From the IMG/VR virus record IMGVR_UViG_3300043640_000020, positions 1 to 48,177 of that record: a stretch of 48,177 nucleotides of DNA; one strand, given 5' to 3'. The notes under the pieces are model-generated. The model saw only the letters and a program-made list of their open reading frames with translations, was not told the DNA's origin and did not search any database. Within the stretch, counting starts at the first letter, position 1. Every line of letters begins with the position of its first letter. Positions 7,142 through 10,908 of this stretch are shown one piece after another. The translations under genes were made by a program, and so were the position numbers. Source of the DNA: a virus.

Positions 7142-7632
7142 AGCGCCGGCCCCCTCGAAGCGGCGTAGTCTCTCGCTGCTTTGCGCGACAAGAACGAATT
7201 GACGACGCGCCCGGCCATCAGCACGGCGTAGGTTGTCGGCGCGTCGGGCTTCACCGCGAGCCTGTGCCAATCCAACCTTGGCTCGCCGCTGGCGTACCGG
7301 GGGACGCTCATTCCGTAGTGGAGCTGCGCGCCGGCCGAATAGCACTTGACGCGGCGAACAATGGCGCCGTTCGGAAGATACTCTTCCTGCCGTACCGCCG
7401 CTTCCCGAGCTTCCTGGGATGTCACGCTGCCCGCGCCAAACCGAAACGAGCGAGCGTATGCTTCGGCCTTTTTCTTCGACAAGCCGCGAGCGCCGGCTAG
7501 CCATTCGACGTAATCCACTTCTTGACGCTGGACCGTCTCAGGCGTCAGCTTGCCCAGCTCGCGCAGCGATGGCGGCTTGTAGCCGTAATAGGTGCGCCAG
7601 TTCTTCGGTTTCGTGCTGTTCATAGCAGTCAT
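7138..7632 (-). CDS. Unknown phage protein, 164 aa
   Basis: The start at ATG 7632 overlaps the stop of the repeat-protein gene by 4 bases; a second ATG three codons later is possible. The product is basic and soluble (LRELGKLTPETVQRQEVDYV, later LSRKAARDYAASRG). No known domain is recognised. It is flanked by overlapping genes on both sides, which supports it being translated. Confidence 0.6.
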   Translation of the reverse strand: MTAMNSTKPKNWRTYYGYKPPSLRELGKLTPETVQRQEVDYVEWLAGARGLSKKKAEAYARSFRFGAGSVTSQEAREAAVRQEEYLPNGAIVRRVKCYSAGAQLHYGMSVPRYASGEPRLDWHRLAVKPDAPTTYAVLMAGRVVNSFLSRKAARDYAASRGPAL

Positions 7633-8459
7633 GCCTCGATCAAATCGAGGAACGCGACGGCTGGCACGGCCATGCCAATGAGAATGTTCGCCACGTCATC
7701 CGCGAACGCCGTTAACTCCTGGTCGGCGGAGTAGGCGGCGTCGGCGGCGGATCGGGCGGATCGGGCGGCGGAGTAGGCGGCGGATCGGGCGGATCGGGCG
7801 GCGTCGGCGGCGGAGTAGGCGGAGTAGGCGGCGGATCGGGCGGATCGGGCGGCGGAGTAGGCGGCGGATCGGGCGGATCGGGCGGCGTCGGCGGCGGATC
7901 GGGCGGATCGGGCGGCGGATCGGGCGGATCGGGCGGCGGAGTAGGCGGCGGCGGAGTAGGCGGCGTCGGCGGCGGATCGGGCGGATCGGGCGGCGGAGTA
8001 GGCGGCGGCGGAGTAGGCGGCGTCGGCGGCGTCGGGGGTCTCGCACGCAAGCGCAGCTTTCTCCAAAGCCGCCTTATGCTCCGCTTGCGGGTGCAATTCC
8101 GCCGCCCGGCGCAATGCGCGGGGGACAACCGTGCGGATCGTCATCGCCGAGACTAGGCGCGTGAATTGCACGTCGTCGAGCACGTCCTTTGTCCCGAGCT
8201 GCAACACCGCCAGCTTGCGCATGCCCTTGGCGCGAGCGGCGTCGGATGACCATGCGGCGTCATTGAGCGTGATCTTGAGCTTACGTAGGGCCGGAGAAAC
8301 GCAATCCGGCTCGTCACCGTGCGGTAGGCCAAGCGCGAAGCATACGGCAGCCTCTACGCACATTTGGCCGGGAATGGGCTGGCCAACGCCTGAGACAAGG
8401 CCAGCGTCCACGATCTCAAGAACCTTGGCGGCGATTTCGCGAGTGATAATGCGTGTCAT
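7629..8459 (-). CDS. Low-complexity Ala/Ser/Arg/Tyr repeat protein, 276 aa
   Basis: ATG 8459 has AAGGGGAC upstream. Residues 1-140 look like an ordinary globular domain (EIAAKVLEIVDAGLVSGVGQ, CVEAAVCFALGLPHGDEPDC). Residues about 143-245 are a tandem array built from three short blocks, AYSA, ARSA and ADAA, repeated in varying order. The final 30 residues (ELTAFADDVANILIGMAVPA) are ordinary sequence again. The array should form a long amphipathic helix with Arg at regular spacing. Proteins with such Ala-rich arrays occur in several phages, usually without known function. The array is coded by near-perfect DNA repeats, so its length probably varies between isolates. Confidence 0.7.
   Translation of the reverse strand: MTRIITREIAAKVLEIVDAGLVSGVGQPIPGQMCVEAAVCFALGLPHGDEPDCVSPALRKLKITLNDAAWSSDAARAKGMRKLAVLQLGTKDVLDDVQFTRLVSAMTIRTVVPRALRRAAELHPQAEHKAALEKAALACETPDAADAAYSAAAYSAARSARSAADAAYSAAAYSAARSARSAARSARSAADAARSARSAAYSAARSARSAAYSAYSAADAARSARSAAYSAARSARSAADAAYSADQELTAFADDVANILIGMAVPAVAFLDLIEA
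7725..8035. repeat. Tandem GC-rich repeats inside the 7629-8459 gene
   Basis: About 310 bases composed of interleaved 15- and 21-base blocks (gcggatcgg, gcggagtag and gcggcgtcg). All blocks keep length divisible by three, so gain or loss of units would preserve the reading frame. Replication slippage is the likely cause. It is not a CRISPR array: there are no unique spacers. Confidence 0.9.
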
Positions 8460-9955: not shown

Positions 9956-10195
9956 TCAGGAGAGAGTGCTGGTGCTTTCCGAAGCGCGCATCTTCTGCGC
10001 TACGCGGATATGCTCTCTTTCCACCCATCGCCACGTGCTCGCATCGCCAATGACTTTCTGCGGCGCTTGTGTCCCCGCGATGTCGAATTCCCGTAGCGCC
10101 GCATCGGCGCCCATGCGCTCGTAAGTCGCGTAGTTCGCGTTCGATTGCGCTTCTTTGGCGCTTGCCGGCGAGCTGTAGAAGGCGAACGGGTTCAT
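9956..10195 (-). CDS. Unknown small protein, 79 aa
   Basis: ATG 10195 has AGGAG upstream and overlaps the stop of the 10192-10356 gene by 4 bases. The product is soluble, with one Trp-rich segment (DASTWRWVEREHIRVAQKM) near the C-terminus. No motif is recognised. It is the last protein gene before the structured region at 9545-9889. Confidence 0.6.
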   Translation of the reverse strand: MNPFAFYSSPASAKEAQSNANYATYERMGADAALREFDIAGTQAPQKVIGDASTWRWVEREHIRVAQKMRASESTSTLS

Positions 10196-10356
10196 GATTG
10201 CTCCTGTTGCATGGGTTGCGTGCGAGCTGATGGCCGAACTAGGGCGATCTCGCCAGCGTCGAGCTTATGGCTTACCGCTGCGATCGGGTCACGTTGCCCT
10301 TGCTTGCGGTAGTGCCGAACGGCTGTCAGCCAACTATCGAATTCCAGCGTTGCCAT
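10192..10356 (-). CDS. Unknown small protein, 54 aa
   Basis: ATG 10356 to TGA 10192, with the stop overlapping the next start (ATGA). The product begins MATLEFDSWLTAVRHYRKQG and is basic and soluble. A hammerhead ribozyme lies 30 bases upstream (10386-10441), so the 5' end of its message is probably made by self-cleavage 57 bases before the start codon. Too short for a family call; the coupling with the next gene supports it. Confidence 0.55.
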   Translation of the reverse strand: MATLEFDSWLTAVRHYRKQGQRDPIAAVSHKLDAGEIALVRPSARTQPMQQEQS

Positions 10357-10385: not shown

Positions 10386-10441
10386 GATCTCATCAGCAAG
10401 CGCGTTACGCTTGTACACGGCTAGCGCGCCGTGTTTCGACC
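10386..10441 (-). ncRNA. Type II hammerhead ribozyme, copy 1
   Basis: Read on the minus strand: stem II strand GGTC (10441-10438), then GAAA with G12-A13-A14 at 10437-10435 and A15.1 at 10434. Stem III is ACACGGC/GCCGTGT around a 6-base loop. The cleavage nucleotide A17 is at 10414 (triplet GUA). Stem I is CAAGCG/CGCTTG (10413-10408 and 10402-10397) with loop TAACG. The core CTGATGA is at 10396-10390 and the closing stem II strand GATC at 10389-10386. Every invariant core base and the A15.1-U16.1 pair are present; both ends meet in stem II, the type II form. Cleavage is predicted between 10414 and 10413. Confidence 0.9.
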
Positions 10442-10471
10442 TGTATCTATTAACGGTTGATAAGCTGTCCG

Positions 10472-10741
10472 TCAAGCCCTGCGCTTGATCGGCTTGCGTG
10501 ATCCGTGGTAGCGCATCCGCGCTTGTTCCTCGTCATAGCACTCGTGTTGAGCGTCGGAGGCCATCACATAGGCCACGGCTAATGCGTCCCCGGTCTCGGC
10601 GGCGCGTTTGCGCGTGTCTTGGTGCTTCTCGGAGCCGAAACCCGCGTTGATGAGATCGCGGCAGAGCTTCGATGCTAGTGCCGTGCGCTTCTCGTACAGC
10701 GCTTGCAGCTTGGCGGCGGAGAGCTTCGATAGGTTCGTCAT
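10472..10741 (-). CDS. Unknown early protein, 89 aa
   Basis: Start ATG 10741 is chosen because AAGGGGTATATC lies directly upstream; the longer frame to 10942 would run through the ribozyme and another gene. The product (MTNLSKLSAAKLQALYEKRT...) is helical and ends in a basic stretch (SRKPIKRRA). No family is recognised. Its ribosome site starts right after the closing strand of hammerhead copy 2 (10754-10811). Confidence 0.65.
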   Translation of the reverse strand: MTNLSKLSAAKLQALYEKRTALASKLCRDLINAGFGSEKHQDTRKRAAETGDALAVAYVMASDAQHECYDEEQARMRYHGSRKPIKRRA

Positions 10742-10753
10742 GATATACCCCTT

Positions 10754-10811
10754 GATCTCATCAGCAAGCGCTTGACGCTTGGACACGGCGCTTAGAAGCC
10801 GTGTTTCGATC
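10754..10811 (-). ncRNA. Type II hammerhead ribozyme, copy 2
   Basis: Minus strand: stem II strand GATC (10811-10808), G12-A13-A14 at 10807-10805, A15.1 at 10804. Stem III is ACACGGC/GCCGTGT (10804-10798 and 10789-10783) with loop TTCTAAGC. C17 is at 10782 (triplet GUC). Stem I is CAAGCG/CGCTTG (10781-10776 and 10770-10765) with loop TCAAG. Core CTGATGA is at 10764-10758 and the closing stem II strand GATC at 10757-10754. All conserved hammerhead positions are met. Cleavage is predicted between 10782 and 10781, 40 bases before ATG 10741. It differs from copy 1 in loops and cleavage triplet while keeping both stems paired. Confidence 0.92.
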
Positions 10812-10837
10812 TTAGCGGCGTGTTTCGATCTTAGCGG
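10800..10837. repeat. 19-bp tandem duplication at the 5' edge of hammerhead copy 2
   Basis: The unit CGTGTTTCGATCTTAGCGG occurs twice back to back (10800-10818 and 10819-10837). It duplicates the GATCGAAACACG strand of the ribozyme, giving a second possible partner for stem II, and overlaps the stop codon of the 10831-10908 gene. Confidence 0.85.
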
Positions 10838-10908
10838 CGTGGGAACAGCGTCGTCACCAGCATGAAGAGCGTCGGCGGTACGAGGATGAGCAGCGCGAGA
10901 CCAACCAT
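10831..10908 (-). CDS. Single-pass membrane micropeptide, 25 aa
   Basis: ATG 10908 follows GGGGCTTATATC, the same leader style as ATG 10741 and ATG 41241. The product is essentially one membrane segment (VGLALLILVPPTLFMLVTTL) ending FPRR. It is the first frame after the 10930-10970 promoter. Very short, so the call rests on the ribosome site, hydrophobicity and position. Confidence 0.45.
   Translation of the reverse strand: MVGLALLILVPPTLFMLVTTLFPRR

Follow-up and report, generated by a model that had tools for sequence, protein, structure and literature searches.

The locus raises the question of whether two similar elements, which lie on the minus strand between small leftward genes of the window (the whole 48,177-nt stretch of viral DNA that was analysed), are hammerhead ribozymes, and what such ribozymes would do to the message that contains them. 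Copy A is located at 10386..10442 (−), including the conserved A(−1) at 10442, and its RNA (10442–10386) reads A-GGUC-GAAA-CACGGC..GCCGUG-UA-CAAGCG-UAACG-CGCUUG-CUGAUGA-GAUC. Copy B is located at 10753..10812 (−), including A(−1) at 10812 and A(+1) at 10753, and reads A-GAUC-GAAA-CACGGC..GCCGUG-UC-CAAGCG-UCAAG-CGCUUG-CUGAUGA-GAUC-A from 10812 to 10753. Stem II of copy A is formed by 10441–10438 and 10389–10386 (GGUC/GAUC, with one G–U pair) and encloses GAA (10437–10435), the stem III hairpin (10434–10415), the H17 nucleotide A10414, the stem I hairpin (10413–10397, loop UAACG), and CUGAUGA (10396–10390), all on the minus strand. The corresponding minus-strand elements of copy B are stem II at 10811–10808 and 10757–10754 (GAUC/GAUC), GAA at 10807–10805, the stem III hairpin at 10804–10783, H17 = C at 10782, the stem I hairpin at 10781–10765 (loop UCAAG), and CUGAUGA at 10764–10758.

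Both copies contain the hammerhead core CUGANGA ... GAAA with U16.1–H17 before the cleavage site; the cleavage triplet is GUA in copy A and GUC in copy B. Stems I and III are closed by loops and stem II is open in both. By core and topology, copies A and B are complete type II hammerheads. From the hammerhead fold, cleavage on the minus strand is predicted between A10414, which would carry the 2′,3′-cyclic phosphate, and C10413, which would carry the 5′-OH (10413..10414), and between C10782 and C10781 (10781..10782). With a descriptor of the core and three stems, the window gave exactly these two matches, and 200 first-order Markov shuffles of it gave none. An earlier interpretation of this DNA, hereafter the sequence-only reading, had proposed two minus-strand type II hammerheads with new 5′ ends at 10413 and 10781. 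The sequence, the descriptor, and the covariance model described below agree with it in core, stems, triplets, and coordinates, and the two ends are the correct positions for this fold.

The scan of the window with Rfam at the gathering thresholds gave no hits. RF02276 (Hammerhead_II) scored copy B at 21.2 bits in a 96-nt scan, below its 37-bit gathering cut-off, and reported neither copy in a 2.2-kb scan. By this cut-off, the copies are not members of RF02276, and the curated model covers another sub-class. The low score can be explained by the printed consensus, in which stem II has 2 bp and the 3′ tail is longer. A covariance model, R1, was built from an ungapped alignment of 56 relatives, with the window and the loci L036, L037, and L038 left out. 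In the window it matched copy B at 59.8 bits (E = 1.9e-16), copy A at 47.7 bits (E = 1.2e-12), and nothing else. The covariance-model support expected by the sequence-only reading was thus obtained with the window-free model, but not with RF02276. The Rfam cut-off was reached by only one of 43 candidates (16 loci scanned); phage annotation is therefore blind to most of the sub-class.

A DNA similarity search of the phage collection, a search with the exact full-element pattern, and a search of cellular genomes with the window-type stem I pattern each gave no match. The pattern of the window stem I and CUGAUGAGA was found in three viral contigs (L036–L038), all of which have the remaining hammerhead. 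Two looser patterns, limited to stem II, GAAA, and the core, each matched at least 119 stretches and yielded 234 loci (L039–L272). Among the matches listed, 25 of these loci lack a complete fold, and the remainder are complete. Since the patterns name only the core and stem II, the pairing of stems I and III in all but 25 loci is evidence that is not circular. In the 56-member alignment, with the window left out, all 16 base pairs are kept in 100% of the members and 13 of them show two-sided changes, i.e., the compensatory changes that the sequence-only reading had named as a check. Because pairing was a requirement of the scanner that supplied the alignment members, cleaner evidence comes from the yield of the pattern scan. 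At least 315 type II candidates were found in at least 214 loci, window included. No hammerheads were found in 32 terminase relatives, in which the small-gene region is non-homologous where covered. Near type II copies, two hammerheads of other types, one type III and one type I, were noted at L236:13522–13469(−) and L250:5531–5579(+).

The two copies appear to belong to an abundant phage sub-class with characteristic features. Its stem II has 4 bp of the A-GRUC type, with A on both sides: among the matches listed, A precedes stem II in 257/260 and follows it in 219/260. Stem I has 6 bp and a loop of the form U-N-A-N-G/U (UNANK), whose first base is U in 250 of the 252 17-nt stem I hairpins among the matches listed. 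Stem III is often capped by stable GNRA or UNCG tetraloops; the loop of this stem is not involved in catalysis. Pairing of loop I with the 3′ tail occurs in 5.3% of the family versus 6.5% of shuffles, which is not above chance, and in the window no pairing of at least 4 bp between loop I and nucleotides downstream of stem II is present, the longest run being 2. The sub-class thus lacks the pseudoknot that characterises published type II forms. Judging from the conserved bases, loop I may instead make a non-Watson–Crick contact with the A bases that flank stem II. Copy B is canonical in all respects, and its minimum free energy (MFE) fold is exactly the hammerhead. Copy A departs from the family, among the matches listed, in its GUA triplet (A at H17 in 31/314), in C at +1 (16/260), and in its GGUC/GAUC stem II (5/314, although stem II frequencies are biased because the loci were found via patterns that fix stem II). 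Stems I and III are kept in the MFE fold of copy A, and stem II is absent from it.

Both copies lie among small genes of the same direction. Upstream of copy B is a 25-aa ORF (10831..10908 (−); MVGLALLILVPPTLFMLVTTLFPRR, hydrophobic), a weak gene call with an AGGGG leader at its start. Between the copies there is an 89-aa ORF (10472..10741 (−)), whose ATG follows copy B by 12 nt and has a Shine–Dalgarno-like AAGGGG; it has a weak match to phrog_12624 (E = 0.0028), no Pfam match, and no protein relatives in the viral contigs searched. Copy A is followed by a 54-aa ORF (10192..10356 (−)), a weak gene call without a Pfam match, with GGAG and an ATG 29 nt after stem II; its end has an ATGA-type overlap with a 79-aa ORF (9956..10195 (−)), for which no family match was found. 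The starts at 10356 and 10741, placed downstream of the ribozymes by the sequence-only reading, thus belong to open frames with Shine–Dalgarno-like motifs. The ribozyme-to-start distances of 12 nt (copy B) and 29 nt (copy A) are within the range of the sub-class. The preceding stop is 30 nt from copy A (stop of the 89-aa ORF) and 19 nt from copy B. The latter distance coincides with a 19-nt tandem duplication, CCGCTAAGATCGAAACACG x2 (10800..10837 (−), copies 100% identical), in which the stop (TAA) of the upstream ORF is repeated together with the copy B 5′ arm. Had this duplication not occurred, the stop would adjoin stem II (TAA|GAUC, 0 nt), as in the family. Homologues of helicase and endonuclease VII are among the leftward genes, and the ‘early’ status given to this transcript is plausible.

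Several other features of the window can be noted. The leaders of the 25-aa ORF (10908) and the 89-aa ORF (10741) are similar, CAGGGGCTTATATCATG and AAGGGGTATATCATG, which suggests a leader duplication. A 276-aa ORF at 7629–8459(−) has a long Ala/Ser/Arg/Tyr repeat tract (AAYSAARSARSAAD). An 18-bp palindrome, TGGTATCACGTGATACCA, occurs with up to 3 mismatches in 12 copies (80, 4647, 10999, 11412, 16322, 20318, 23065, 26385, 33171, 41026, 45243, and 48052), with 0 expected in shuffles. Some copies are intergenic, including two between the hammerhead unit and terS, where transcription diverges, and others are within genes; its exact 16-bp core is also found in the terminase relatives L004 (3 copies) and L009. 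These palindromes look like scattered regulator or stoperator-type sites.

The position of both window copies between co-directional small genes, as claimed from the sequence, is also the rule among relatives. Genes were called with a simple codon-usage gene finder, and the following counts refer to the matches listed. Genes of the same strand flank 241 of 296 non-redundant ribozymes, or 241 of the 270 that are outside predicted genes. From the stop codon to stem II the median distance is 1 nt, with 180/241 between −2 and +3 nt; in 67/241 the stop is UAG and overlaps the ribozyme, its G being also base 1 of stem II. From the ribozyme to the next start downstream, the median distance is 23 nt. 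Where a ribozyme separates two co-directional genes of these loci, the median gap is 80 nt, versus 1 nt where none does, and one gene is present between consecutive ribozymes in 54/95 cases. Multi-copy loci number 70, in 69 of which all copies are on one strand. On whole contigs, the copies are confined to one region of a few kb, e.g., nine copies in 38.6–42.7 kb of G046. Of the 25 PHROGs families that are most frequent among genes following a ribozyme, none is a structural or packaging family, whereas the control genes include terminase, tail, methyltransferase, and other families; this is a tendency limited to the 25 most frequent families.

When comparing copies A and B, it can be noted that all free stem positions are identical and the flanks are unrelated. 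By hand count, they differ at 1/44 paired or core sites versus at least 5/11 loop sites (Fisher p = 0.0007). Judging from these likenesses, the copies are evidently duplicates of one ancestral cassette. The selection on the fold that the sequence-only reading had suggested is supported by this pattern of differences and by the covariation in relatives. In all 20 near-identical within-genome pairs examined, the upstream flanks are no more alike than background, and the first ~15 nt downstream are shared in only some of the pairs. All 10 of 10 free positions are equal in 10/100 adjacent within-locus pairs versus 72/20000 between-locus pairs (among the matches listed). From the shared ribozyme, the unshared flanks, and the likeness of adjacent copies, it appears that the ribozyme spreads within a genome as one unit, in some cases together with its leader but without the flanking genes. 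Alternatively, a larger stretch may have been duplicated long ago, with later erosion of its unconstrained flanks.

A stricter pattern matched 48 contigs of cellular genomes, mostly Gastranaerophilales MAGs. Many of them contain Mu-like prophages with the gene order AAA ATPase (MuB-like by position), GemA, a small gene, [hammerhead, small gene, hammerhead], and a Mor-like gene. The Mor-like gene and the small gene that follows GemA serve as anchors. In each of the 26 loci in which both are present, the interval contains one or more hammerheads, and exactly two in 15 of these loci; since the loci were ascertained via the hammerhead, the counts show a conserved position and not a frequency. This position between GemA and the Mor-like gene is kept down to 42% identity of the MuB-like protein. 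The pair around one small gene in the GemA/Mor-like interval was seen in L276, L284, L293, L312, and other Gastranaerophilales loci. One hammerhead of the pair often has a conserved stem III loop (GGCUAACNNUGCAAGCU), which is not needed for catalysis and is possibly a binding site.

We consider it probable that the ribozymes of the window cut the leftward message into single-gene mRNAs with hairpin ends. The polycistronic transcript would be cut during its synthesis, 5′ of C10781 and C10413, which would release the 89-aa ORF as a single-gene mRNA and free the 54-aa/79-aa pair from it. In type II hammerheads both helices adjacent to the cut are closed hairpins, whereas in types I and III only one is; owing to this topology, a hairpin would be present at both new RNA ends. 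The upstream product would end in the stem III hairpin with a 2′,3′-cyclic phosphate a few nucleotides past the stop (about 20–30 nt here), and the downstream product would begin with the stem I hairpin and a 5′-OH about 40–60 nt before the start codon. Neighbouring cistrons would be uncoupled in this way, and the translation and stability of each could be tuned separately. The three minor departures of copy A, the lack of stem II in its MFE fold, and the absence of hammerheads from the terminase relatives searched argue against this partition; the activity of clustered phage hammerheads provides a precedent for it (Perreault et al., PMC3088659). Protection of the products by their hairpin ends is less firmly suggested than the partition, as direct-entry RNase E needs no 5′ phosphate; according to two reports, 5′-OH RNAs are still open to it (PMC2948425, PMC4191395).

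The ribozyme could also be a switch gated by translation: a terminating ribosome would cover stem II and GAAA, cleavage would take place only if the upstream gene is poorly translated, and it would alter the expression of the downstream gene. A stop-adjacent stem II is within the footprint of a terminating ribosome, and both the −2 to +3 nt spacing in 180 of the 241 ribozymes (among the matches listed) and the conserved ~23-nt leader to the next start fit this idea. However, compact gene packing alone would place the element against the stop; moreover, the stops upstream of the window copies are not adjacent to them, lying 30 nt away for copy A and, after the duplication, 19 nt away for copy B. 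We regard this mechanism as possible, but rather unlikely. It is improbable that one or both copies are decaying inactive relics. The GUA triplet, the G–U pair in stem II, and the C at +1 of copy A would be expected of a relic, as would the partial extra 5′ arm, but copy B is canonical and the changes after duplication are almost all in loops (1/44 versus at least 5/11, p = 0.0007).

A chance likeness, or a DNA- or protein-binding repeat resembling a hammerhead, would account for the 36-nt direct repeat in the window. This reading can practically be dismissed: it is effectively refuted by the absence of matches in 200 shuffles, the E-values of 1e-12 to 1e-16 with an independent model, and the covarying stems in relatives. 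Finally, gene-length RNAs released by paired cuts might be circularised, either by RtcB-type ligation or by the reverse reaction via a re-paired stem II, as in retrozymes. The end chemistry (5′-OH and 2′,3′-cyclic phosphate) fits, and the stem II halves of copies A and B are mutually compatible. Nevertheless, only 9/45 adjacent pairs with a pattern-free stem II (among the matches listed) could re-pair across the gene, which leaves circularisation through a shared stem II unsupported, and Perreault et al. sought circular or spliced products without finding any (PMC3088659). Circularisation is thus highly improbable.

Returning to the partition of the message, we tentatively suggest a broader picture in which phage type II hammerheads of a large and for the most part unannotated class might be a movable intercistronic cassette (stop/ribozyme/leader-RBS/start). 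It would copy itself within genomes without its neighbours and turn accessory operons of small genes into single-gene double-hairpin mRNAs, possibly gated by the terminating ribosome at a stop fused to stem II. The biological role of phage hammerheads has been in question since 2011. This role becomes directly testable with hundreds of loci that have one geometry in common (stop, ribozyme, ~23 nt, start), since the RNA ends can be predicted with single-base precision; the overlap with the stop codon points to a specific coupling to translation.

The sequence-only reading took tandem intercistronic hammerheads to be undescribed, which does not hold. Perreault et al. (2011) already describe clustered hammerheads of phages and prophages that flank single genes, suggest transcript processing, and report cleavage for three clustered arrangements (PMC3088659). 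No further paper on phage type II hammerheads was found in the literature searched, which excludes most subscription journals; within that scope, three features appear to be undescribed: the placement next to the stop codon, a phage sub-class that lacks the pseudoknot and scores below the Rfam cut-off, and the copying of the cassette. The type II hammerheads of RF02276 and of Perreault et al. have in common with the window copies the core, the three stems, the permutation, the phage or prophage setting, the single-gene clusters, and the proposed transcript processing (PMC3088659). They differ in having a short stem II and a loop I/3′-tail pseudoknot, whereas the window sub-class has a 4-bp stem II, A on both sides of it, and a UNANK loop I. 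The tandems of Agrobacterium tumefaciens (around ardA), Azorhizobium caulinodans, and Clostridium scindens contain, as here, several hammerheads per phage-like transcription unit (PMC3088659). They were cleaved in vitro, and the A. tumefaciens set also in E. coli (PMC3088659); however, they involve other genes and other hammerhead sequences, and the accessible text does not mention a stop-adjacent geometry (PMC3088659). Type I and III hammerheads (Schistosoma, sTRSV; PMC6155905) differ from the window copies in permutation and have non-pseudoknot contacts between loop I and stem II. A like contact is suggested for the window sub-class by conservation alone, i.e., by the invariant U of loop I and the A beside stem II. 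The two copies are real; clustered phage hammerheads, and a processing role suggested for them, were already known, while the geometry of this sub-class appears to be new within the literature searched.
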